Notes under the pieces: model-generated | The model's input: the letters and a program-made list of their open reading frames with translations, nothing else | The model's database searches: none | Told to the model about the DNA's origin: nothing | Assembly: GCA_031286585.1 (NCBI GenBank) | Contig: JAITUC010000009.1 | Location: 62,001 to 126,000, forward strand | Source: Delftia acidovorans | GTDB taxonomy: Bacteria > Pseudomonadota > Gammaproteobacteria > Burkholderiales > Burkholderiaceae_C | Direction of reading: 5' to 3' | DNA length: 64,000 bases | Program-made: the position numbers and the translations under genes | Shown here: piece by piece, positions 7,385 through 27,227 of the stretch | Layout: each line of letters begins with the position of its first letter | Numbering within the stretch: position 1 is the stretch's first letter

Positions 7385-7924
7385 ATGGCACGACTGCAAA
7401 AACTGTATCGCGAAAAGATCGCGGCTGAACTGAAGGAAAAGTTCGGCTACACCTCCACCATGGAAGTGCCCCGCCTGACCAAGATCACCCTGAACATGGG
7501 TGTGAGCGAAGCCGTGGCCGACAAGAAGGTGATGGACAACGCCGTGGCCGACCTGACCAAGATCGCTGGTCAGAAGCCCGTGGTGACCAAGGCCAAGAAG
7601 GCTATCGCCGGCTTCAAGATCCGCGAAGGCCAGGCCATCGGCTGCATGGTGACCCTGCGTGGCGTTCAGATGTATGAATTCCTGGACCGTTTCGTCACCG
7701 TGGCTCTGCCCCGCGTGCGTGACTTCCGTGGTATCTCCGGCCGTTCGTTCGACGGTCGCGGCAACTACAACGTCGGCGTCAAGGAACAGATCATCTTCCC
7801 CGAAATCGAGTACGACAAGGTGGACGCTCTGCGTGGTCTGAACATCAGCATCACGACCACGGCAAAGACCGACGACGAGTGCAAGGCACTGCTCGCCGCT
7901 TTCCGTTTCCCCTTCAAGAACTGA
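7385..7924 (+). CDS. rplE: 50S ribosomal protein L5
   Basis: A 179-residue L5, normal length, with the conserved [20 protein letters not shown] segment near residues 61-80 and the C-terminal [14 protein letters not shown]5 binds 5S rRNA in the central protuberance together with L18 and contacts P-site tRNA. It is followed after 8 bp by rpsN. Confidence 0.98.
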
Positions 7925-7932
7925 GGTGGCGC

Positions 7933-8238
7933 ATGGCTAAAGTTGCATTGATTCAGCGCGAACTCAAGCGCGAAAAGCTGGCGGCCAAGTACGCTGCCAA
8001 GTACGCAGAACTGAAGGCAATCGCCGCTGACGCAAAGCGCAGCGACGAAGAGCGCGACGCCGCTCGCCTGGGCCTGCAGAAGCTGCCCCGTAACGCGAAC
8101 CCTACTCGCCAGCGCAACCGCTGCGAGATCACGGGTCGTCCCCGTGGCACCTTCCGTCAATTCGGTCTGGGCCGCGCCAAGATCCGTGAACTGGCCTTCG
8201 CTGGCGACATCCCCGGTGTCACCAAGGCCAGCTGGTAA
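7933..8238 (+). CDS. rpsN: 30S ribosomal protein S14 (zinc-free type)
   Basis: A 101-residue S14, the long form without the CxxC zinc site (only one Cys, in [12 protein letters not shown]). The start [15 protein letters not shown] fits the family. An upstream in-frame ATG at 7879 lies inside rplE and was not used. S14 binds the 3' major domain of 16S rRNA in the 30S head. The zinc-free paralogue is often the zinc-limitation copy in other bacteria, but here it is the operon copy, as is usual in proteobacteria. Confidence 0.97.
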
Positions 8239-8258
8239 GCAAGCAGGAGAGATTAAAC

Positions 8259-8654
8259 ATGAGCATGAGTGATCCCATCGCTGACTTGCTGACCCGCATC
8301 CGCAATGCACAAATGGTCTCCAAGACCACCGTGACGGCTCCTTCCTCCAAGGTCAAGGTTGCCATCGCCCAGGTGCTGAAGGATGAAGGCTACATCGACG
8401 GCTTCCAAGTGAAGACCGACGCTGGCAAGTCCGAACTCGAAATTACCCTGAAGTACTACGCCGGCCGTCCGGTGATCGAGCGCATCGAGCGCGTGAGCCG
8501 TCCCGGCCTGCGCGTGTACAAGGGCCGCGACGCAATCCCCCAGGTCATGAACGGTCTGGGCGTGGCCATCGTCACCACTCCCAAGGGCGTGATGACGGAT
8601 CGCAAGGCACGCGCCACCGGCGTGGGCGGCGAAGTGCTGTGCTACGTGGCCTAA
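8259..8654 (+). CDS. rpsH: 30S ribosomal protein S8
   Basis: A 131-residue S8. The start [18 protein letters not shown] has two nearby ATGs (8259, 8265). The first is kept because aggaga ends about 9 bases before it, though the second is possible. S8 binds helix 21 of 16S rRNA and, in E. coli, represses the spc operon by binding near rplE. Whether an S8 box exists here was not resolved. Confidence 0.97.
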
Positions 8655-8678
8655 CGGACATTAAGGAGAAATACTGAA

Positions 8679-9212
8679 ATGTCTCGCGTAGCAAAGACTC
8701 CCGTGGCCATCCCCGCAGGCGTGGATGTGTCCATCAAGGCTGACCAGATCAATGTGAAGGGCACCGGCGGCACGCTGTCGCTGGCCCAGAACGTTCTGGT
8801 GAAGATCTCCAACAACGAAGGCAAGCTGTCTTTCGAGCCCGTCAACGACTCGCGCGAAGCCAACGCCATGAGCGGCACCATGCGTCAGCTGGTGAACAAC
8901 ATGGTGGTGGGCGTGAGCAAGGGCTTCGAGAAGAAGCTGTCGCTGGTCGGCGTGGGCTTCAAGGCTTCGGCCTCTGGCGCCAAGCTGAACCTCGCGATCG
9001 GCTATTCGCACCCGGTGAACTTCGAAATGCCGGCCGGCATCACTGTTGCCACCCCCACGCCCACGGAAATCGTGGTCAAGGGTGCTGACCGCCAGGCCGT
9101 TGGCCAACTGGCTGCTGAGATCCGTGCCGTTCGTCCTCCCGAGCCCTACAAGGGCAAGGGCATCCGTTACTCGGATGAGAAGGTCGTGATCAAAGAGACC
9201 AAGAAGAAGTAA
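8679..9212 (+). CDS. rplF: 50S ribosomal protein L6
   Basis: A 177-residue L6, typical length, ending with the conserved [20 protein letters not shown] element (about residues 152-171). L6 sits near the factor-binding centre of the 50S subunit. An aaggagaaa ribosome binding site precedes the ATG. It is placed between rpsH and rplR as usual. Confidence 0.98.
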
Positions 9213-9223
9213 GGAGCTGCATT

Positions 9224-9589
9224 ATGTTGACCAAGAAAGAGCAGCGTCTCCGTCGTGCCCGCCAGACCCGCATCCGCATTGCCCAGCAAGGCGTGGCACG
9301 TCTGAGCGTGAACCGTACGAACCTCCACATCTACGCAAGCGTGGTGTCGGAAGACGGCACCAAGGTGCTGGCTTCGGCCTCGACTGCCGAAGCCGAAGTG
9401 CGCACCCAACTGGGCGCCATCGGCAAGGGTGGCAACGTGGCTGCCGCTACGCTGATCGGCAAGCGCATTGCCGAGAAGGCCAAGGCTGCAGGCGTGGAGA
9501 AAGTGGCTTTCGATCGCGCTGGTTTCGCATACCACGGCCGCGTGAAGGCTTTGGCAGAAGCCGCTCGTGAAGCCGGCCTGCAGTTCTAA
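9224..9589 (+). CDS. rplR: 50S ribosomal protein L18
   Basis: A 121-residue L18 with a basic N-terminus ([16 protein letters not shown]) and the conserved [20 protein letters not shown] near the C-terminus. It carries 5S rRNA into the 50S subunit together with L5. It lies 11 bp after rplF and 15 bp before rpsE. Confidence 0.98.
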
Positions 9590-9604
9590 GCGGAGCGGAT
9601 AGAA

Positions 9605-10126
9605 ATGGCAAAGTTTTCTCCCAAGGTGCAAGACGAAGGTCGTGACGACGGTCTGCGCGAAAAAATGATCGCGGTGAACCGCGTCACCAAGGTTGTGAAG
9701 GGCGGTCGTATCCTCGGCTTCGCTGCACTGACCGTGGTTGGCGACGGTGATGGCCGTGTTGGCATGGGCAAGGGCAAGTCCAAGGAAGTGCCTGCAGCCG
9801 TGCAAAAGGCGATGGAAGAATCCCGTCGCAACATGATCAAGGTGTCCCTGAAGAACGGCTCGATCCATCACACCGTGATGGGTCAGCATGGTGCAGCATC
9901 CGTGATGCTGAACCCCGCTCCCAAGGGTACCGGCATCATCGCCGGCGGCCCGATGCGCGCCGTCTTCGAAGTGCTGGGCATCACCGACATCGTGGCCAAG
10001 AGCCATGGCTCGTCGAATCCCTACAACATGGTCCGCGCGACTTTTGACGCTCTGAAGAACTCCACGACCCCTTCGGAAGTGGCAGCCAAGCGCGGCAAGT
10101 CGGTTGAAGACATCTTCACCGCCTGA
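9605..10126 (+). CDS. rpsE: 30S ribosomal protein S5
   Basis: A 173-residue S5. The N-terminal double-stranded RNA-binding domain has [20 protein letters not shown] (about residues 29-48), and the C-terminal [15 protein letters not shown] element is present. S5 acts in decoding fidelity and mRNA entry on the 30S subunit. Spectinomycin-resistance positions lie in the loop near residues 20-30, which looks wild type. Confidence 0.98.
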
Positions 10127-10140
10127 TCGGAGTCAATCAC

Positions 10141-10323
10141 ATGACAACGCAACAAACCGTGAAGGTGCAACTGGTGCGCAGCCCCATTGGCACCAAGGAA
10201 TCGCACCGCGCCACCGTCCGTGGCCTGGGCCTGCGCAAGCTGAACAGCATCAGCGAACTGCAGGACACGCCTGCCGTGCGCGGCATGATCAACAAGATCA
10301 GCTATCTGGTCAAAGTCCTCTGA
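10141..10323 (+). CDS. rpmD: 50S ribosomal protein L30
   Basis: A 60-residue L30 ([17 protein letters not shown]...), the normal bacterial length, with the conserved [16 protein letters not shown]. It binds 23S rRNA near L7Ae-like folds of the large subunit. It lies 14 bp after rpsE and 11 bp before rplO. L30 is absent from some bacterial groups, so its presence here is informative. Confidence 0.97.
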
Positions 10324-17882: not shown

Positions 17883-18470
17883 TCATGCAGCGGTCCGTGG
17901 CTCGCCCAGCGACAGCATGAGCCGGTTGGCCCAGTTGAAGAAGGCCGTGCCGTGCAGCGCATCGGAGATGGCGGCATCGTCCAGGCCGGCGGCGCGCAGC
18001 GCATCGATGTGGGCTGGCTCCAGCGCAGGCGGCGTCTGGGTCAGCGCCACGGCGGCCGTGACGATGGCGTTCCAGAGCGGCCCCAGGTCCGTGCCGGGGC
18101 CTTCGTCGAGCAGGCGCTGCACGTCGCCGCCCCGGCGTGAGAAGTGCGTGGCAAAGCGCGCATGGACCGAGGCGCAGTAGATGCAGCCATTGGCGCGCGA
18201 GGTGGCCGCAGCGGCCAGCTCGCGCTCGGCGCGCGGCAGGCCGGCGTCGGGGTTGTAGAAGATGTCCTTGTCGGTGCGCGTGCGCGCGCCCAGCGTGTCG
18301 GGGTCGCGCGCCAGCAGGCGGAAGTAGGGCGACTGCGCGCGTGAGGCATCGACCAGGCCTGCCTGGTGGCGTTCGGTCAGCTCGCTTTCGTCCAGCGGTT
18401 CGATCCATGGCAGCCAGTCGAGCTGGTCCTGGGTGAAGGCCTGGGGCGCGGCGGAGTTCGTGGAGGTCAT
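17883..18470 (-). CDS. AhpD-like alkylhydroperoxidase-domain protein (Avi_7169 family)
   Basis: A 195-residue all-helical protein of the AhpD/carboxymuconolactone decarboxylase superfamily. The redox motif Cys96-I-Y-Cys99-A-S-V-His103 is the CxxCxxxH core of peroxidatic AhpD proteins. I recall it as the 'alkylhydroperoxidase domain, Avi_7169' family, found beside the genes that flank it here. It is the last gene of the operon and overlaps the CMD gene by 4 bp (ATGA). A role in reducing a peroxide or oxidised thiol made by the monooxygenase is inferred. The true substrate is unknown. Confidence 0.85.
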   Translation of the reverse strand: MTSTNSAAPQAFTQDQLDWLPWIEPLDESELTERHQAGLVDASRAQSPYFRLLARDPDTLGARTRTDKDIFYNPDAGLPRAERELAAAATSRANGCIYCASVHARFATHFSRRGGDVQRLLDEGPGTDLGPLWNAIVTAAVALTQTPPALEPAHIDALRAAGLDDAAISDALHGTAFFNWANRLMLSLGEPRTAA

Positions 18471-19162
18471 GGCTGGGCTTGCAGGGAGGTGGGTTGATGG
18501 GCTGCCGGGGGCGCGGGGCGTGCAGCCAGCACGCGCAGCCCCGCCACGACACGGATCTGGAAGGACAGGAAGGACGCCAGCTGGGACAGGATGACGATGT
18601 CCGTCTCGCTCCAGCCCGCCTGTTGCAGCGCCTGCAGGGCCCCGGCGCTGGCGTCGCGCGGGTGGTAGGCCAGCAGGTGGGCATGTGCCAGCGCCGCGGC
18701 CAGGCGGGGGCCCAGCAGTGCGGCGTGGGCAGGGTCCACGGCATAGGCAGGGCCTGGCTGGTCCTCGCGGCTGAGCGGGCCCGCCGGGTAGCGGCCGTAG
18801 GGGCCGTGCGGACCGCTGCCGGCCTGCAGGCTCTGGGCGCGGCCACGCACCACTTCGGACGCCACGACGGCGGCCAGTTCCGCATCCTCGGTGGCCAGCG
18901 CGCGTGCATAGAAGGCGGCGCTGCGCGGCTCGCCATGCAGCCCGGCCGTGAAGGCGGCCAGGGCCAGCCGCTCGCGCAGCGAGACCGTGCCGGGCACGGG
19001 CTCGGCGGGCGTGAACAGGGCGGCAAAGCTCTGCTGGGCCTGCGCGCGTGCCTCGGTGCGGTGGCGGCGCACGCGGTCCAGGGCGCTGCCGGGGGCGATG
19101 TCGGCGAGGTGGTCGATCACGTCGCCGGGAAAGCGGGGCGTTGCGGTGGTGTTCATGATCAT
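18467..19162 (-). CDS. Cysteine-free CMD-domain protein (Avi_7170 family)
   Basis: A 231-residue helical protein related to carboxymuconolactone decarboxylase-like proteins (the family I recall as 'CMD domain, Avi_7170'). It has no cysteine at all, so it cannot do AhpD-type thiol chemistry and may be a structural or ligand-binding partner of the next protein. The start overlaps the monooxygenase stop as ATGA; a second ATG two codons on (19156) is an alternative. The last three bases overlap the AhpD-like start. The middle part (GSGPHGPYGRYP, about residues 115-126) is glycine/proline-rich. Confidence 0.75.
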   Translation of the reverse strand: MIMNTTATPRFPGDVIDHLADIAPGSALDRVRRHRTEARAQAQQSFAALFTPAEPVPGTVSLRERLALAAFTAGLHGEPRSAAFYARALATEDAELAAVVASEVVRGRAQSLQAGSGPHGPYGRYPAGPLSREDQPGPAYAVDPAHAALLGPRLAAALAHAHLLAYHPRDASAGALQALQQAGWSETDIVILSQLASFLSFQIRVVAGLRVLAARPAPPAAHQPTSLQAQP

Positions 19163-20277
19163 GCGGCTTGCAGCAGTCCGGCCCGGACTGCGGGGAGGGA
19201 AGAGGGCGCTGGGGTGGACGCATCGGCACGGCGCCAGCCCAGGGCCGGGGCCACATGGGCGGCCGTCAGTTCGATGGAGCGCAGGATGGCGGCGTGCGGC
19301 GGATCGATGGAATGCACCTGGAAGACGATGTCGCTCACCCGCGCCAGCGCCGTGTCGGCGCGCAGCGAGGCGATGACCTCGTCGGGCGTGCCCACATGCA
19401 CGTCGTAGGCGGCGATGAGATCGGCCAGCGGCGCCTGCGGATCGACGCGGGCCGCCCACTGCGAGGGCTGGGCCGCGTGGCGCCGGGCCACGCGGCGCAG
19501 GCCGGCCTCGGCCCAGCGCAGCGCTTCGTCGCGGCTGTCGGCCACGAACAGCGTGCGCGAGCCCAGGATGCGCGGCGCCCGCCCTGCGGGCAGGCGGGCG
19601 AGGTAGGCGTCGATGATGGGGTTCTGGATCTCGGACAGCGTGGCCTGCGGCGCGCCTTCGGGCCGTGGCTGGGTGCGCGACAGCATCAGGCCGTCGCCGT
19701 TGGCCCCGGCCCGCGCACCGCCCTCGGCCGAGAACGTGGCCTGCCAGACGCGCTCCAGCAGCTGCGGCGCGGCAGGGTACAGGCGCACGCCGCCGGCCAG
19801 CGCGCGCCCGGCCCAGGCGTCCTGCAGCACGCCGAAGTGGTGCGCGAAGACGGCGCCGCGCTCGGCACCCTGCACGCCGAAGGCCTCGAAGGATTCGGCC
19901 GTGCCGCCCGTGCCCAGGCCCACCTCCAGGCGGCCGCCGGTCAGCAGGTCCAGCACGGCCGCGTCCTCGGCCACGCGCAGCGCGTTTTCCAGCGGCAGCG
20001 TGATCACGCCCGTGCCGATGCGGATGCGCCGCGTGCGCGCCGCCACATGGGCCAGAAAGACGAAGGGCGAGGGCAGGCCGCCCTCGCTTTCATGGAAATG
20101 GTGCTGGGCCACCCAGGCCGTGTCGAAGCCCTGGGCCTCGGCATGGGCGATCTGCTCGGCCACCAGGCGGTAGCGTTCGCCGGCCGGCGCATCGTCGAGC
20201 AGGCGGCTGAAGAAGCCCAGGCGCGGGCCGCTGCGGGTGGCGGAGCCGCTGGTGGTGTCAGGCGGGATGGGGGACAA
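19159..20277 (-). CDS. Luciferase-like FMN-dependent monooxygenase (KPN_01858 family)
   Basis: A 372-residue enzyme of the bacterial luciferase/alkanesulfonate monooxygenase class, which uses reduced FMN and oxygen. Seen are FDTAWVAQHHFHESEG (about residues 49-64), RIRIGTGVITLPLENALR and VGLGTGG. The start is inferred as TTG at 20277: the ATPase reading frame runs to 20258, aaggag lies 8 bases before this TTG, and no ATG exists nearby. This family keeps company with a peptide-type ABC importer and CMD/AhpD proteins. A flavin reductase gene is not in the window, so FMNH2 must come from elsewhere. Confidence 0.85.
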   Translation of the reverse strand: MSPIPPDTTSGSATRSGPRLGFFSRLLDDAPAGERYRLVAEQIAHAEAQGFDTAWVAQHHFHESEGGLPSPFVFLAHVAARTRRIRIGTGVITLPLENALRVAEDAAVLDLLTGGRLEVGLGTGGTAESFEAFGVQGAERGAVFAHHFGVLQDAWAGRALAGGVRLYPAAPQLLERVWQATFSAEGGARAGANGDGLMLSRTQPRPEGAPQATLSEIQNPIIDAYLARLPAGRAPRILGSRTLFVADSRDEALRWAEAGLRRVARRHAAQPSQWAARVDPQAPLADLIAAYDVHVGTPDEVIASLRADTALARVSDIVFQVHSIDPPHAAILRSIELTAAHVAPALGWRRADASTPAPSSLPAVRAGLLQAA

Positions 20278-21949
20278 AATCAATGCTCCTTGTGCCGGGA
20301 ATGGCGTCCATGAGTTCGCGTGTGTAGTCGCTGGTGGGGCGCAGGAACACGTCCTCCACGCTGCCCGCGTCCACCACCTTGCCTGCGCGCAGCACCGACA
20401 CCGTGTCGGCAATCTGGCGCACCACGGCAAGGTCGTGCGAGATGAAGAGATAGGTCAGCCCCAGGTCCTGCTGCAGCTGGGCGAGCAGGGCAAGGATCTG
20501 TGCCTGCACCGTCACGTCCAGGGCCGAGACGGCCTCGTCCAGCACCAGCACCTGCGGCTGCAGCACCAGCGCGCGCGCAATCGCCACGCGCTGGCGCTGG
20601 CCGCCCGACAGCGCATGCGGGCGCCGCTGCAGCACGGCCGGCGGCAGGCCCACGCGGGCCAGCATGTCGTGCACGCGCTGGCGGCGCTCACTGGCGGGCA
20701 GCGGGTCGAAGTTCAGCAGGGGCTCCTCGATGATGTCGAACACGCTTTGGCGCGGGTCCAGAGAACTGAACGGGTTCTGGTAGACCAGCTGCACGCGGCG
20801 GCGCAACTGGCGCAGGGCTTCGCCGCGCAGGCCCGTGACCTCGATGCCTTCGATGCGGATGCGGCCCGCCGTGGGCCGGCCCAGGCCCACGATGGCGCGG
20901 ATGGTGGTGGTCTTGCCCGAGCCCGACTCGCCCACGATGGCATGCGTGCTGCCCCGGCGCACGCGCAGCGACACGCCGTCCACGGCGCGGAAGATGCCGC
21001 GCCCGTGGGCCGAGGCATGGCCGGGCGCCGCGAACTCGTGCACCAGGTCCTCGACCTCGATGGCCCAGTCATCGGCCGTGGCCGGCCTGGGCGTGCGGCG
21101 CGGCGCGGGCGCCAGCGACGGCGCATCGGCCAGCAGCCGCCGCGTATAGGCGCTTTGCGGATTGCGCAGCAGCTCCAGCGTGGGGCCCTGCTCCTGGATG
21201 CGGCCGCCCTGCATGACGACCAGGCGGTGCGAACGGTCGGCCGCCACGCCCAGGTCATGCGTGACCAGCAGCACGGCCGTGCCGGTCTCGCGGCGCAGCG
21301 CGTCGATCAGGTCCAGGATGCGCCGCTGCACGGTCACGTCCAGCGCGCTGGTGGGCTCGTCGGCAATGATGAGGGCGGGCCGCAGCGCGATGGCGATGGC
21401 GATCAGCACGCGCTGGCGCATGCCTCCCGACAGCTCGTGCGGATACTGGCGGGCGCGCAGCGCGGGCTGGGACAGGCCCACGCGCGCCAGCAGTTCCAGC
21501 ACGCGCGCTTCCACGGCCGTGCGGTCGCGCAGGCCGTGGATGCGCAGGATCTCGCCCACCTGGTCGCCCACCGTGCGAACGGGGTTCAGCGACATGGTGG
21601 GGTCCTGCGGCACCAGGCTGACCACGCGGCCGCGGATGGCATTCCAGCGTGCGGCCGGCCAGCCCGAGACCTCGGTGCCCTGCAGGCGGATGCTGCCGTG
21701 CTCGCGGTAGCCGTTGTCGGCCAGAAGGCCGATCACGGCCTGGGCCGTGGTGGTCTTGCCCGAGCCCGATTCGCCGACCAGGGCCACCACCTCGCCCGGC
21801 GCCACGGAAAACGACACGCCGTGCACCACGCGCTGCGCCTGGCCTGCGGCATCGCGGTAGGCCACGGCCAGGTCCTGCACTTCGAGTACGGGGGCGGTGG
21901 TTGCCACCGCTGGTGCGGCGTGGATGCGTTCCTCGATGGCGGCGCTCAT
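20258..21949 (-). CDS. Duplicated ABC ATPase of the oligopeptide/nickel type (DppD-DppF fusion)
   Basis: 563 residues with two complete nucleotide-binding domains. Domain 1 has Walker A GESGSGKTTT near residues 55-64, signature LSGGMRQR and ADEPTSALD. Domain 2 has Walker A GESGSGKTTT near 345, signature LSGGQRQR and LDEAVSALD. In most peptide importers these are two genes (DppD, DppF); here they are fused, as in YejF/GsiA. It overlaps the upstream permease by 4 bp and the downstream monooxygenase by 20 bp. It energises import through the two permeases encoded just upstream. Confidence 0.9.
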   Translation of the reverse strand: MSAAIEERIHAAPAVATTAPVLEVQDLAVAYRDAAGQAQRVVHGVSFSVAPGEVVALVGESGSGKTTTAQAVIGLLADNGYREHGSIRLQGTEVSGWPAARWNAIRGRVVSLVPQDPTMSLNPVRTVGDQVGEILRIHGLRDRTAVEARVLELLARVGLSQPALRARQYPHELSGGMRQRVLIAIAIALRPALIIADEPTSALDVTVQRRILDLIDALRRETGTAVLLVTHDLGVAADRSHRLVVMQGGRIQEQGPTLELLRNPQSAYTRRLLADAPSLAPAPRRTPRPATADDWAIEVEDLVHEFAAPGHASAHGRGIFRAVDGVSLRVRRGSTHAIVGESGSGKTTTIRAIVGLGRPTAGRIRIEGIEVTGLRGEALRQLRRRVQLVYQNPFSSLDPRQSVFDIIEEPLLNFDPLPASERRQRVHDMLARVGLPPAVLQRRPHALSGGQRQRVAIARALVLQPQVLVLDEAVSALDVTVQAQILALLAQLQQDLGLTYLFISHDLAVVRQIADTVSVLRAGKVVDAGSVEDVFLRPTSDYTRELMDAIPGTRSIDFVPHPA

Positions 21950-22911
21950 GCAGGCCTCCGTGCGAAGGCCGTGGCGATGCGGTTGGCCGCCAGCACCACG
22001 GCCACCACGATCAGGCCCGGCGCCGTGGTCAGCCACCAGGCGGTGGCGATGTAGTTGCGGCCCTCGGCGATCAGCAGCCCCCATTCGGGCGTGGGCGGCG
22101 GCGCGCCGTAGCCCAGAAAACCCAGCGTGGAAATCGCGAGGATCGCCGAGCCGAACTGCAGCGCCGCCATGGCGATGACCGAGGTCAGCGAATTGGGCAG
22201 CACATGGCGCCACAGCACGGCGGCAAAGCGCCCGCCGCTGCCAAAGGCGGCCTCCACGTAGTCGGAGCGGCGCACGCGCACCACCTCCGAGCGCACCAGG
22301 CGCGCAAAGCTGGCCACCGAGACCACGCCCACGGCAATGGCCGCGTTGATGGTGCCAAAGCCCAGCACGATGATGATGGTCAGCGACAGCAGCAGCGAAG
22401 GCACGGCCAGCAGCACATCGACCAGGCGCATCAGCGCATCTTCCGTGCGCCCGCCCGTGGCCCCGGCCAGCAGGCCGATCAGCGTGCCCACGGCCAGGCC
22501 CACGCCCACGGCCACGAAGGCGCCCGACAGCGAATGCACGGCGCCATGCACCACGCGTGCCCACAGGTCGCGCCCCAGCGCGTCCGTGCCCAGCCAGTGC
22601 GCGGCGCTGGGCGCCAGCAACTGCTGGCCGGCCTGGCCCGCGATCGGGTTCTGGTGGGCGAACCAGCCGGGCGCCAGCGCCCACAGCGCGGCCACGGCAA
22701 TCACCAGCCAGGCCAGGGCCAGCGTGGGCGGCAGGCGTCTCAGGGATTGCAGGCGGGCCGGCAAGGCGAAGCTGCGGCGCGCAGCGGCTGGCGCAGGGGC
22801 CGAGGACGATGCAGCAGGCAGCGCAGTGGAAATGGGCGTATGAGCAGGCGTGGCGGGCGCGGCCTGGGCTTCCAGGGCCGGGGAAAGGGCGCTTGAGACG
22901 GCGGTGTTCAT
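21946..22911 (-). CDS. ABC permease, DppC type
   Basis: A 321-residue permease with an unusually long alanine/proline-rich N-terminal tail (about 50 residues) before the first membrane helix. The DppC-type N-domain (QLLAPSAAHWLGTDALGRDL, about residues 98-117) and the EAA loop (YVEAAFGSGGRFAAVLWRHV) are present, with about six helices. It overlaps its partner permease and the ATPase by 4 bp at each end. The N-terminal tail is low complexity, and the start could lie further in, but the ATGA overlap favours the long form. Confidence 0.88.
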   Translation of the reverse strand: MNTAVSSALSPALEAQAAPATPAHTPISTALPAASSSAPAPAAARRSFALPARLQSLRRLPPTLALAWLVIAVAALWALAPGWFAHQNPIAGQAGQQLLAPSAAHWLGTDALGRDLWARVVHGAVHSLSGAFVAVGVGLAVGTLIGLLAGATGGRTEDALMRLVDVLLAVPSLLLSLTIIIVLGFGTINAAIAVGVVSVASFARLVRSEVVRVRRSDYVEAAFGSGGRFAAVLWRHVLPNSLTSVIAMAALQFGSAILAISTLGFLGYGAPPPTPEWGLLIAEGRNYIATAWWLTTAPGLIVVAVVLAANRIATAFARRPA

Positions 22912-23855
22912 GGCCGGTTCTCCACGGAATGGCGCAGGCGCGGATCGAGCAGCGGGTACAGCAGATCCACGGCGAGGTTGATGAGTACGAAGGCGGCGGC
23001 CGAGACGACCACCACGGCCTGGAGCACGGCCGTGTCCTGGTTGCCCACGGCCTGCTGGGTCAGCGTGCCCAGGCCGTTGAGGCCGAACACGGCCTCCGTC
23101 ACCACGGCACCAGCCAGCAGCTCGCCGAACAGCACGCCGGCAATGGTCAGCGTGGGCAGCAGGGCATTGCGCGCCACATGGCGCAGCAGCACCCAGCGGC
23201 GCGAGGCGCCCTTGGCCCGCGCCACGGCCACGAAGGGCTGGGCCAGCACGGCGTCGATATTGCGCAGCAGCACCTGGGCCAGCGGCGCCGAGATCGGCAC
23301 GGCCAGGGTCAGCGTGGGCAGCACCAGTCCTTCCCAGGGGCCGGGATTGATCACGGCGATCCAGCCCAGGCGGAACGACACCACCTGGATCAGCATGATC
23401 CCCAGCCAGAACACGGGCACCGAGACAAAGACCGAGGGCAGCGAATGCAGCGCATTGCGCAGCCAGGACAGGGGCGCCAGGCTGGCGGCCGCCGCCAGCG
23501 CCACGGACAGCAGCGCGGCTGCGGCAAAGCCCAGGGCCGCGAGCTTGAGCGTGGGCGGCAGGCTGGTGGCCAGGCCCTGGCTCACCGGCACGCCGGCCTG
23601 CAGCGAATAGCCGAAGTGGCCCGTGAGGAACTGGCCCAGCGTGTGCAGGTACTGCTGCCACACGGGCTGGTCCGAGCCGTAGGCGGCGCGGATGTCGGCG
23701 ATCTCCTGCGGGCCCAGGCCCAGCTCGGGATTCAGGAACTTGATCAGCACGGCGTCGCCCGGCAGCAGCTGCAGCAGGATGAACGAGACCGTGAAGGCCG
23801 CCCACAGCACCAGGGCGGCCTGGGCGATGCGGCTGAGCAGATAGCGGCGCGGCAT
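22908..23855 (-). CDS. ABC permease, DppB type
   Basis: A 315-residue permease with six hydrophobic segments. The DppB N-terminal segment is MPRRYLLSRIAQAALVLWA and the EAA loop reads FVAVARAKGASRRWVLLRHV (about residues 211-230). It pairs with the DppC-type permease, which it overlaps by 4 bp. It lies 27 bp after the binding-protein gene. Confidence 0.9.
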   Translation of the reverse strand: MPRRYLLSRIAQAALVLWAAFTVSFILLQLLPGDAVLIKFLNPELGLGPQEIADIRAAYGSDQPVWQQYLHTLGQFLTGHFGYSLQAGVPVSQGLATSLPPTLKLAALGFAAAALLSVALAAAASLAPLSWLRNALHSLPSVFVSVPVFWLGIMLIQVVSFRLGWIAVINPGPWEGLVLPTLTLAVPISAPLAQVLLRNIDAVLAQPFVAVARAKGASRRWVLLRHVARNALLPTLTIAGVLFGELLAGAVVTEAVFGLNGLGTLTQQAVGNQDTAVLQAVVVVSAAAFVLINLAVDLLYPLLDPRLRHSVENRP

Positions 23856-23882
23856 GGGAGCGGTTCCGGGGGAGCGTTCCGG

Positions 23883-25556
23883 TCAGCGCTTGGCCAGCCA
23901 AGTGCTGTAGAAGCTGGGCCGGCCCACGGCCTCGAAGCCCACGTCGCGCACCCAGCCTGCGCCCGCAAAGGCCTGGGGCTCCTCGAAGATGGGAATCACA
24001 TAGGCCTGGTCGATCAGGTAGTTCTGCACCTCGCCGGCCAGCGCCAGGCGCCTGGCGGAATCGGTCTCGGCCGCGATGGCGTCGAACAGGCCGTTGAGCT
24101 TCGTGTCCTCGAAGGACTTGACCTTCTGGCTCACGCCGCCCTTTTGCAGCAGCACGTTGCGGTTGGTCGGGTAGTAGTTGCTCTTGATCACGTCGGGATC
24201 GGCGCGGCCCACCATGCCGGGCAGCACGCCGGTCTTGTCGGGGTCCAGCGTGTCCACGGCGCGGCTGCCCGCGTCGCCCGACAGCACGTTGAGCTTGACG
24301 CCGATGCGCGCCCACTGCTGGGCCACGAGCTGCAGCGTCTCCTTGTTCTGCGGCTGGGGCAGGGACTCGTAGGTGGACAGCACGAAGTCCTGCCCGTTCT
24401 TCTGGCGCAGGCCGTTGGCGCCCAGCGTCCAGCCGGCCTCGTCCAGCAGCTGTTTCGCCTTGGCCTCGTCATAGGCCAGCTTGGCCGACAGGTCCACGAA
24501 GCCGGCCGCCGTGGAGGCGATCACCGAGCGCGCCTGCGGATAGCGCGGCGAGAACAGCGTCTCCACGATCTCCTTGGCATTGGTGCCATGCAGCAGCGCC
24601 TGGCGCACCTTGAGGTCGGCCACCAGGGCGTTGTCCGGGCGGATGGCCACGCTGTTGTTCACGCCGCGCGTGGGCGGGGCGTAGATGCTGAACTTCTGCT
24701 CCTCGACGCGCTTTTCGTCATAGGCCTGGATCTGGCGGATCAGCCCGGCCTGACCGGCCAGCAGCGCGCCGATGCGCACGCTGTCCTCGGGCGTGACGAT
24801 GAACTTCACCTCGTCCAGCCGCGCGCGGCCCTGGTGGGCCAGCTTGGCGGGACCCCAGGCATAGTCCTTGCGCACCTTGAGCACCAGTTCCTTGCCCAGC
24901 GTCTCGCTGGCCACCACGAAGGGGCCGGAGCCGATGATGCGGGTGGCGTCGCCCAGCTCCTCGAAGGGGCGGTCCAGCGTGGCCGGCGAGACCAGGCCCG
25001 AGCCGATCACCGAGGTGCCCTGCAGGAAGCCCGGCGAAGGCTTCCTGAAGAAGAACTTCACCGTCAGCGGATCGACCACCTCGCTGCGCTCGTAGTTGTT
25101 GATCACCTCGGACACCGGCTGCTTGAGCGCCTTGTTGCCCAGGCCGTAGGTGTCGAAGTTGCGCGCCACGGCCGCCGCGTCCAGCGGGGTGCCGTCGGAG
25201 AAGGTGACGCCGGGCCGCAGCTTGAAGCTGTACTCGGTGGCGTCGGCGTTCACGGTCCAGGACTCGGCGATCCAGGGCTGGATCTCCAGCGTCTTCGGGT
25301 CCTGGTAGGTCAGCTTGTCGGTGATCTGGTTGAGCACGCCGCCGTTGGGGTAGAAGCCCCCGGCCGGCGGATAGAGGTTGGTATGGGCCTGCTGCTCCAG
25401 ATAGACCAGGGTGCCGCCCTCCACGGGGCCGGCAGCCGCGCCCGCCTGGGCCGTATCGGCCTGCCGGGAGCACGCCGCCAGCAGCAGGCTGCTGCCCGCC
25501 AATACCGCTATCGCGGCCTTCCATGCCACCTGACCCGCCTTCGATTGGGAAAACAC
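23883..25556 (-). CDS. ABC substrate-binding lipoprotein (KPN_01854-like, SBP family 5)
   Basis: A 557-residue periplasmic binding lipoprotein of the DppA/OppA/NikA family. From the GTG start at 25556 (cgagg about 7 bases upstream) it has a lipoprotein signal ending LLLAAC, with the lipidated Cys at residue 29. An in-frame ATG at 25628 gives an extension without ribosome binding site that would bury the signal. The order SBP-permease-permease-ATPase-LLM-CMD-AhpD matches the set I recall as the KPN_01854/KPN_01858 neighbourhood. The ligand is unknown; peptide- or thioether-like organic molecules are candidates. Confidence 0.85.
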   Translation of the reverse strand: MFSQSKAGQVAWKAAIAVLAGSSLLLAACSRQADTAQAGAAAGPVEGGTLVYLEQQAHTNLYPPAGGFYPNGGVLNQITDKLTYQDPKTLEIQPWIAESWTVNADATEYSFKLRPGVTFSDGTPLDAAAVARNFDTYGLGNKALKQPVSEVINNYERSEVVDPLTVKFFFRKPSPGFLQGTSVIGSGLVSPATLDRPFEELGDATRIIGSGPFVVASETLGKELVLKVRKDYAWGPAKLAHQGRARLDEVKFIVTPEDSVRIGALLAGQAGLIRQIQAYDEKRVEEQKFSIYAPPTRGVNNSVAIRPDNALVADLKVRQALLHGTNAKEIVETLFSPRYPQARSVIASTAAGFVDLSAKLAYDEAKAKQLLDEAGWTLGANGLRQKNGQDFVLSTYESLPQPQNKETLQLVAQQWARIGVKLNVLSGDAGSRAVDTLDPDKTGVLPGMVGRADPDVIKSNYYPTNRNVLLQKGGVSQKVKSFEDTKLNGLFDAIAAETDSARRLALAGEVQNYLIDQAYVIPIFEEPQAFAGAGWVRDVGFEAVGRPSFYSTWLAKR

Positions 25557-25816
25557 GTTCGTACCTCGCCGCCGCTGGGGCGCTGAAAAACAAGACTGCC
25601 GGCACAGGACCGGCTCCATGTTTTTCATGCTATCGATGCCAAATATTTGCGCTCATATATCGAGTTGCATCGTTATTTGGAAAACGACTAAGGGATGGCG
25701 CCCCCGCATATCTGCCCAGTGCATAAGCGCAGACGGATTCGTTTGTTTGCCGCGCATGCGGCGGTCCCAACAATGGGCTGGTACGTCCTTCACCGAAATC
25801 CACCGAAAGCCCGTCC
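25557..25816. promoter_or_regulatory. Divergent control region of the LLM/ABC operon and OsmC
   Basis: 260 bp, with a strongly AT-rich core at about 25620-25690 in otherwise GC-rich DNA. A perfect palindrome CAAATATTTG lies at 25640-25649, with a CCAAATA copy (25639-25645) mirrored by TATTTGG at 25674-25680. Promoters for both directions should lie here. No regulator gene is found in the locus, so a global regulator (for example of sulfur or peroxide status) probably acts here. This is inferred. Confidence 0.45.
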
Positions 25817-26368
25817 ATGAGCCATCTCAACGAATACCTCGCCGAAAAGCGCGCCGCCGTGCTCGCCCGCAGCGCCGCCGTCGCGGCCGGCACGGCACAG
25901 CCCGCCCATCTCAAGGCCCATGTGCGCGCCGAGGGCCGCAGCGGCGTGCGCCGCCTGCGCATCCGCGAGCACCAGGTCATCAGCGACAGCCCGCCCGACT
26001 TCGCGGGCTACAACCTTGGCCCGAGCTCGCCCGAGCTGCAGCTGGGCGTGCTGGGCACCTGCGTGACCCACATCTTTCTGATCCAGGCGGCCGAGCGCCA
26101 GGTGCCCGTGGAGAGCCTGGAGGTCGAGGTCACGGGCATCATCGACCCGCGCGGCGGCAAGCCCGGCCACGAGGCCACGCCCATCTGGCCGCATGAGATC
26201 GGCTACACCGTGCACATCGACTCGCCCGCCAGCCGCGCCGACATCGACGCGCTGTTCGAGGCCGTGGAGCGCACCTGCCCCATCCTCAACCTGCTGCGCA
26301 ATCCGCAGAACATCCGCGCCGAAGTGCGCCACACCGATTCCAGCGCAGCCGCGCGCCTGGCGGCCTGA
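25817..26368 (+). CDS. OsmC-family peroxidase
   Basis: A 183-residue OsmC/Ohr-family protein, which reduces organic hydroperoxides with two cysteines. Both are present: Cys82 (LGVLGTCVTHIFLIQ) and Cys154 (ERTCPILNLLRN). The length exceeds classical Ohr (about 140) because of an N-terminal extension, as in OsmC-like YhfA-type proteins. It starts the plus-strand arm of the locus, divergent from the LLM/ABC operon, and is followed by the VOC gene after 25 bp. This puts two thiol-peroxidase-like proteins (OsmC, AhpD-like) around one monooxygenase. Confidence 0.88.
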   Translation: MSHLNEYLAEKRAAVLARSAAVAAGTAQPAHLKAHVRAEGRSGVRRLRIREHQVISDSPPDFAGYNLGPSSPELQLGVLGTCVTHIFLIQAAERQVPVESLEVEVTGIIDPRGGKPGHEATPIWPHEIGYTVHIDSPASRADIDALFEAVERTCPILNLLRNPQNIRAEVRHTDSSAAARLAA

Positions 26369-26393
26369 ACACCGTGCGGAAAGCACCCCTGCC

Positions 26394-27227
26394 ATGACCC
26401 TGCCACTCGACCACATCGTCATCGCGGTCCAGGACCTGGAACGCACCATTGCCGACTACACCGCGCTGGGATTCAACGTGCTGCGCGGCGGCGAGCACCC
26501 GGGCCGCTCCACGCACAACGCCCTGGTGGTGTTTGCCGACGGCGCCTATTTCGAGCTCATCGCCTGGCGCGCACCCGCGCCCGAGGAGCGCTGGTGGCAG
26601 CAGCTGCAGCGCCACGGCGAGGGCATTGTCGATTTCGCGCTGCTGCCGTCGGAGACCGGCGCCGTGGTCGCCGCAGCCCAGGCGCGCGGTCTGGACTACG
26701 AGGCGCCCTACGAAGGCGGCCGCCTGCGTCCCGACGGCGCGCAACTGCGCTGGCGCAATGCACGCGCCCGCAGCCAGGACCTGCCCTTTCTCTGCGGCGA
26801 CCTCACGCCGCGTGCCCTGCGTGTGCCCGAAGGAGAGGCGCGCGTGCACCCCAACGGCGCCACCGGCGTGGCCCGGCTGCACGTGGCCGTGCATGACCTG
26901 CGGGCCAGCCTGGCACGCTGGCGTGCGCTGCTGGGTGAAGGCGCCGAGGTCGGGGAGGCCCGGCTGTCGGCCGATGGCGGCGCCTACCGCGCCTCGCTGA
27001 AGCTGGGGGGGCCGGGCGCCACCGAGCTGGTGTTGTCTGCCCCGGCCCAGGGCGTGGCCACGGGTGCGCTGGGCCACCGGCTGGCCACGCGCGGCGAAGG
27101 CCCTTATGCGATCGGGCTGGACGTGCGGCAGCCGGCATCTGCGCTGGCACTGGACGAGACCGCCACGCACGGCGCGCGCATCGTGCTGGCCCAGGTTTCC
27201 CCTGCCCGGGAAACCGCCGCCGCCTAG
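26394..27227 (+). CDS. VOC/glyoxalase-like domain protein
   Basis: A 277-residue protein with two vicinal-oxygen-chelate-type halves: the first begins LPLDHIVIAVQDLERTIADY (residues 3-22), the second near GVARLHVAVHDLRAS (about residue 160). This matches the glyoxalase_3-type fold. The first half keeps a metal-ligand-like His (DHIV) and Glu (YFELIAW). Function is unknown; ring-cleaving, lyase or isomerase chemistry is possible. It lies 25 bp after osmC and is probably co-transcribed. ATG 26394 is preferred over upstream in-frame starts inside osmC. Confidence 0.75.
   Translation: MTLPLDHIVIAVQDLERTIADYTALGFNVLRGGEHPGRSTHNALVVFADGAYFELIAWRAPAPEERWWQQLQRHGEGIVDFALLPSETGAVVAAAQARGLDYEAPYEGGRLRPDGAQLRWRNARARSQDLPFLCGDLTPRALRVPEGEARVHPNGATGVARLHVAVHDLRASLARWRALLGEGAEVGEARLSADGGAYRASLKLGGPGATELVLSAPAQGVATGALGHRLATRGEGPYAIGLDVRQPASALALDETATHGARIVLAQVSPARETAAA

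Follow-up and report, generated by a model that had tools for sequence, protein, structure and literature searches.

A 64,000-nucleotide stretch of Delftia acidovorans DNA (contig JAITUC010000009.1, positions 62,001 to 126,000; hereafter the window) contains a cluster of nine genes (17883..27227) that very probably encodes a sulfur-starvation scavenging system, because its proteins are depleted in cysteine and methionine (Cys+Met) and because sulfur-type genes neighbour its relatives in some loci. An ATP-binding cassette (ABC) importer with its binding lipoprotein (SBP), a flavin-type luciferase-like monooxygenase (LLM), a pair of CMD and AhpD-like proteins, an OsmC-family protein and a VOC protein make up, as far as sequence comparison can tell, one conserved, Cys+Met-depleted unit. 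Within sulfur scavenging, thioether chemistry is somewhat favoured. The cluster is another variety of organosulfur scavenging rather than a system of a new kind, and its placement there would reveal the organic sulfur sources on which these bacteria depend. The original prediction for this DNA had guessed at a sulfur-containing ligand, a guess that amino acid composition and gene neighbourhood now back.

Cysteine and methionine content of the cluster

Sulfur-acquisition proteins are reported to be poor in Cys and Met (PMC7661421, PMC8557817); in Gordonia, induced oxygenases contain 0.88-1.33% versus 3.01% for the proteome (PMC7661421). The nine proteins of the window cluster contain 21 Cys and Met among 3031 residues (0.69%), with single values from 0.27% in the LLM, which has no Cys and one Met in the 373 residues after its start, to 1.55% in the AhpD-like protein, where two of the three such residues are the cysteines of a CxxC motif. 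Ten other window genes, recognised by reading, average 3.4% (minimum 1.21%; p 0.0003 versus the cluster).

The same depletion is found across 107 loci, taken from 80 genome contigs, 18 genome stretches and 8 plasmid records besides the window, which carry 104 distinct LLM proteins, three of them present twice; the contigs are the 80 that rank highest by LLM similarity among at least 574 confirmed relatives. Mean Cys+Met contents are 0.28% for the SBP (81 loci), 0.23% for CMD (106 loci), 0.76% for the LLM (107 loci), 1.15% for the ATPase, 1.02% and 1.45% for the two permeases, 1.88% for OsmC and 1.99% for AhpD, compared with 3.01% in 948 flanking open reading frames (ORFs) and 3.24% in 175 ORFs from 20 control stretches, both mechanical sets that include some shadow frames. 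All 106 loci with the LLM/CMD/AhpD trio have less Cys+Met in it than in its flanks. The window AhpD and VOC values in this locus-wide tally are inflated by N-terminal ORF extension, and the values of the paralogue comparison were used. In that comparison, paralogues are richer in six of seven families (n 5 to 43): SBP (1.48%, n=21, versus 0.32% in the cluster), the permeases (2.92%, n=5, versus 0.93%, and 2.89%, n=21, versus 1.46%), ATPase (2.76%, n=43, versus 1.13%), AhpD (5.37%, n=6, versus 2.08%) and VOC (1.38%, n=12, versus 0.65%). When only annotated plasmid genes are counted, the cluster has 0.64% (42 genes) versus 2.63% (100 genes; p 2e-12). As yardsticks, eight Tau/Ssu proteins of E. 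coli span 0-2.4% (TauA 0, SsuE 0, TauD 0.35, SsuD 1.05 and TauB 2.36%) and eight Opp/Gsi proteins 2.0-7.7% (OppA 2.03, GsiC 4.26 and OppD 7.74%), with RutA at 5.25%. The cluster thus shows, relative to neighbours and paralogues alike, the Cys/Met depletion of sulfur-starvation scavenging systems.

Low Cys+Met might also stem from constraints on the families or from high GC, carrying no information on sulfur, as the shadow frames in the mechanical ORF sets and the LLM, which does not differ significantly from three other LLMs (1.14%, n=3), would allow. This explanation is highly improbable: genes nearby in the same genomes mostly have normal contents, the depletion is common to unrelated proteins (SBP, permeases, ATPase, VOC and LLM), and both the paralogues of the six families and the annotated genes argue against it.

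Gene order, constant core and exchangeable importers

The minus strand carries, in order of transcription, genes for the SBP (23883..25628, 868 bits to TIGR04028), two permeases (OppB/NikB type, 22908..23855; OppC/NikC type, 21946..22911) and a fused two-domain ATPase (20258..21949) of a peptide/nickel/opine-type importer, the last three assigned by family searches, followed by the LLM (19159..20283, 555 bits to TIGR04027), the CMD protein (18467..19162, 191 bits to TIGR04029) and the AhpD-like protein (17883..18470, 280 bits to TIGR04030). On the plus strand, the OsmC-family protein (25817..26368; no Met after its start) and the VOC protein (Glyoxalase_3; 26394..27227; one Cys and no Met after its start) are transcribed oppositely from a control region common with the SBP. 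Stop and start codons overlap by 4 bp (ATGA) at four junctions (permease 1/permease 2, permease 2/ATPase, LLM/CMD and CMD/AhpD), and the TTG start of the LLM sits within the 3' end of the ATPase gene. The SBP probably begins at GTG 25556 rather than at ATG 25628, to judge from a conserved ribosome-binding site and an aligned GTG, and would then have 557 residues, with its only Cys in the lipobox and one Met after the start.

All nine genes of the original prediction are present, and its view of them as parts of one machine is borne out by the ATGA overlaps and by the CMD and AhpD genes that adjoin the LLM in 106 of the 107 loci. It had also given the names KPN_01858, KPN_01854, Avi_7170 and Avi_7169, which are indeed those of TIGR04027 to TIGR04030; the LLM, SBP, CMD and AhpD proteins, adjacent in one locus, exceed the curated NCBIfam cut-offs of these four models. 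All four are hypothetical equivalogs with no substrate or pathway in the model names and descriptions shown, and their consecutive numbers suggest that they were built as one set. The families they define, found in many enteric bacteria and in many from soil and plants, are without function in annotation. To call the system undescribed was nevertheless an overstatement, because the models exist and because a family member with a crystal structure has a substrate claimed in print, poly(acrylic acid) (PMC11354265).

At E 1e-80, 16 of 398 genomes from the phylum have TIGR04027, as do 4 of 200 from the family, each count including the window's own genome; 14 control genomes gave no match. The closest named relatives of the LLM among the matches listed are those of D. 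acidovorans NBRC 14950 and D. tsuruhatensis NBRC 16741 (95%). Co-occurrence of the families elsewhere, the check that the prediction had named, is near universal for the LLM, CMD and AhpD; the single exception (L147) is an LLM without CMD or AhpD among genes that read as phage-like, in a 2 Mb genome.

The importer is more variable. By a mechanical distance rule, a peptide-type importer is near the LLM in 84 of the 107 loci (L063 and L067, within this number, have a different peptide importer), a Liv-type importer in 9 and neither in 14. In three Variovorax loci (L069, L072 and L100), LivK, LivHM, LivG and LivF stand in place of the peptide importer, and OsmC, VOC, LLM, CMD and AhpD stay together as one run. 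OsmC and VOC can be assigned to the system because they are kept through this replacement. Another genus, from a class other than that of the window, is represented by six genomes in which AhpD is followed by a Liv-type binding protein like that of these Variovorax loci; in five of the six, a MetQ-like lipoprotein precedes the LLM, and two (L138 and L140) showed the full order MetQ, LLM, CMD, AhpD, LivK, LivHM, LivG, LivF. Since the importer is swapped while the trio persists, LLM, CMD and AhpD form the constant core, to which either kind of importer can be joined. A fused CMD-AhpD protein is encoded in 9 of the 107 loci (six genomes of one family, Pantoea, Erwinia and Comamonas terrae), six fusions being visible in an alignment and three (L135, L136 and L144) resting on the mechanical rule.

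Monooxygenase, thiol proteins and proposed mechanism

The LLM matches PF00296 (Bac_luciferase, 144 bits) and, at 407 bits, its solved relative PCX02514 of Klebsiella sp. PCX (PDB 8K74), a member of the same family for which poly(acrylic acid) hydroxylation is reported on the evidence of a crystal structure, product mass, lowered polymer weight and weaker point mutants (PMC11354265); gene context is undiscussed in the available sections of that report. This was the only substrate in print found for the family in searches by gene name, family name (TIGR04028 excepted) and product name; among the papers listed under the product names, PMC11354265 alone was matched to this family. The prediction had allowed that a substrate might already be established; one is claimed, and it fits poorly. 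PCX02514 is reported to work with NADPH, not with NADH, FAD, FMN or FMNH2, and to have a kcat of 0.00214 per second (PMC11354265); such activity is unusual for this family, uptake of a polymer by an ABC importer would not be expected, and the Cys/Met depletion and the sulfur neighbours would be left unexplained. We judge the hydroxylation to be a side activity or artefact; poly(acrylic acid) degradation is probably not the natural role, and oxidation of this polymer or of other long carboxylates is scarcely credible as the function of the cluster.

Two groups of characterised systems resemble the cluster in part. The SsuEADCB and TauABCD systems also combine an importer with an oxygenase and consist of Cys/Met-poor proteins, with another importer class, other substrates and none of the extra thiol proteins found in the window. 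A variant within sulfur scavenging is sulfonate or sulfone use, in which the LLM would free sulfite like SsuD, MsuD or SfnG and the thiol proteins would guard only against flavin-derived peroxide. It would share the low Cys/Met signature and would suit the NMT1/SsuA-type binding protein or tauA near some loci; it is unlikely, since the importer belongs to the peptide or Liv type instead of SsuABC, the 25 families listed for the LLM include no SsuD family, and sulfite release alone would presumably need neither an AhpD/CMD pair nor OsmC. Thioethers bring the comparison to the Cmo/Yxe systems of B. subtilis (for S-alkylcysteine and S-(2-succino)cysteine), which, as in the cluster, join an ABC importer to an LLM. 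Their importer class differs from that of the window cluster, and no N-acetyltransferase or M20 deacetylase is among the nine window genes, unlike the Yxe route; an M20-like gene is near in 4 of the 107 loci. CMD/AhpD, OsmC and VOC are missing from the yxe part list in the available text of its report (PMC9706529). The locus of Pantoea At-9b, with a GNAT gene, an LLM and two amidohydrolase genes near the cluster, resembles the YxeL/K/P route in its parts (PMC9706529). In sulfur-starvation papers on Serratia and P. aeruginosa, the terms tried for the cluster were not found.

The original prediction had invoked two cysteine peroxidases. The AhpD-like protein fits, with a CxxC motif (residues 96 and 99), as in the active site of AhpD peroxidases, kept in 81 of 81 alignment rows. 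The CMD protein does not: it has no Cys in the window, no alignment column with at least 30% Cys (81 rows) and no CxxC of the AhpD peroxidase kind, and being cysteine-free it is not a cysteine peroxidase. The other cysteine protein is OsmC, with two conserved cysteines (C82 and C154 in the window) in 23 of 23 rows. A structure model of CMD (pLDDT 87.7) has AhpD-like structures (2oyo, 6k40 and 3c1l) as its first-ranked PDB matches, at probability 1.00 and a best E of 1.9e-3, none reaching 0.001 or below. On our reading of this predicted fold, CMD would be a lobe that pairs with AhpD and has no cysteine.

Single AhpD chains match a model (pTM 0.65) of the fused Comamonas terrae protein, and Sestrin2 (PDB 5dj4) is the sole AhpD-type match over both lobes among the 50 matches listed, a weak one (rmsd 14.6, E 0.03) that serves as a shape lead only. 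E. coli YciW likewise has two AhpD-like lobes in one chain and aligns with the Erwinia fusion at 22% identity over 329 residues (E 6e-11 one way, 6e-13 the other); a CysB motif lies upstream of it (PMC10821248). YciW was considered as an orthologue and rejected, being below the cut-offs of TIGR04029 and TIGR04030, having NGSPAC rather than NGCIYC and containing 2.67% Cys+Met; unlike in the cluster, no LLM is beside it. Elsewhere in the window's own genome (L132, C19, about 7499-10148), a second TIGR04029-like CMD gene (71 bits, below the cut-off) adjoins genes that read as FAD-dependent monooxygenase-type and TctC-type, and a Cys/Met-poor pair of FAD-oxidoreductase and TctC is near LLM, CMD and AhpD in Variovorax L152.

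The likeliest mechanism would be C-S cleavage by the LLM followed by thiol-based repair. When sulfate is scarce, an organosulfur compound would enter through the importer; the likeliest candidates are thioethers, for example S-substituted cysteines, mercapturates or small peptides bearing one. A reductase encoded elsewhere would supply reduced FMN to the LLM; family searches found no flavin reductase among the nine window genes, and no genome-wide search was made. The LLM would oxidise the substrate and cleave it between carbon and sulfur, leaving a carbonyl product together with either a sulfenic acid or a thiol. The CxxC-bearing AhpD, with CMD as a dead partner subunit, and OsmC would reduce sulfenic acid or peroxide by-products, VOC would handle the carbonyl or another intermediate, and the released sulfur would go to cysteine. 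This proposal draws on CmoJ, which yields a sulfenic acid that is subsequently reduced (PMC10863075), on YxeK (PMC9706529) and on the allicin resistance that overexpressed AhpD alone confers in P. syringae, where no insertion in osmC is reported as recovered in the available text (PMC7119367). More tentatively, the cluster may represent a widespread and hitherto unassigned proteobacterial thioether route in which the LLM produces a sulfenic acid, a half-dead heterodimer of CMD and AhpD is a dedicated sulfenate reductase, and importers are exchangeable.

The allicin work also raises the alternative that the cluster serves not nutrition but protection from thiosulfinates made by plants, or from other sulfur compounds that react with thiols. 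Allicin-resistance islands, too, contain AhpD and OsmC (PMC7119367), and some plasmid carriers of the cluster, in a sampling-biased set, were isolated from onion. No LLM or peptide importer is named for these islands in the available text of that study (PMC7119367); with a Cys/Met-depleted importer and LLM pointing to use under starvation, defence is very unlikely.

Control region, neighbouring genes and points against sulfur scavenging

The divergent control region between the SBP and OsmC genes contains a conserved element (ATAACGATGCAACTCGATATATG, 25654..25676, minus strand), whose core ATAACGATGCAACT is kept between the two genes in Delftia, Comamonas and Acidovorax. The window's own genome has one match to the element without mismatch and one with three mismatches, the latter between acyl-CoA-ligase-type and glycine-cleavage-T-type genes (by ORF reading). 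In iron-limited K. pneumoniae, KPN_01858 and TauC were both raised (PMC7194016), which at most hints at common control.

Genes that suggest sulfur metabolism are near the trio in some loci. In Variovorax VAI-C (L152) a CysB-family regulator adjoins AhpD and a sulfurtransferase lies further on. Rhodanese-domain proteins are encoded in L103 (8230-9867, immediately before the LLM), L080 and L087, with a Cys/Met PLP (pyridoxal phosphate) enzyme in L080, and MetQ-like proteins in L059, L063 and L067 and, more weakly, in L052. In A. vitis the trio is near tauA, acyl-CoA-dehydrogenase-family genes and another LLM. Many of the neighbour genes listed across loci are Cys/Met-poor as well, including 8 of 13 annotated A. 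vitis neighbours below 1% Cys+Met.

Several observations, besides the non-significant LLM contrast and the reported failure of PCX02514 to use FMNH2, weigh against sulfur scavenging or parts of its mechanism. The E. coli yardstick groups overlap slightly (TauB versus OppA). No site like the conserved element was found before cysI, sbp and ssuA of the own genome (genes named by reading), and the idea of a shared sulfur-regulator site was set aside. Both importer types are missing by rule in the 14 loci noted above, although in L103 the Liv genes lie just too far away to be counted and the contigs of L074 and L125 are cut. Of the 107 loci, 27 have OsmC nearby and 37 a VOC protein of either type. 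The window LLM falls outside the YxeK and SsuD subfamilies, its best family being TIGR04027 with no YxeK/NtaA-type or SsuD model among the 25 of 27 families listed, and we infer both the sulfenic-acid step and the CMD/AhpD complex.

The neighbourhood itself is uneven: 68 of 106 loci lack all of the 15 neighbour seeds, a set that includes several not specific to sulfur, and 2 of 20 control stretches carry one, the seeds having been picked after the loci were viewed and the controls being shorter (12 kb versus about 20-25 kb). Five of the eight annotated plasmid records (Roseateles, Rhizobium BT04, Erwinia, Paracoccus and Terrarubrum) have no sulfur gene by product name. A matched Pfam tally is suggestive at most, with NlpA (3), Rhodanese (2) and Acyl-CoA_dh_2 (3) among 106 flank genes. 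All three are absent from the 25 of 138 families listed for the controls (104 of 176 genes), a listing that mostly cuts off singletons.

Cys/Met depletion also suggests which neighbours share the starvation programme. On an A. vitis plasmid (L157, 2240-20693), the cluster is surrounded by many Cys/Met-poor genes, among them those for an isopenicillin-N-synthase-family oxygenase and an LLM, tauA and acyl-CoA-dehydrogenase-family genes, and much of this region is a candidate sulfur-starvation island. In two further loci, a molybdoenzyme gene that reads as BisC/DMSO-reductase-like (L138, 4200-6521; L107, 17693-20011) lies less than 10 kb from the trio.

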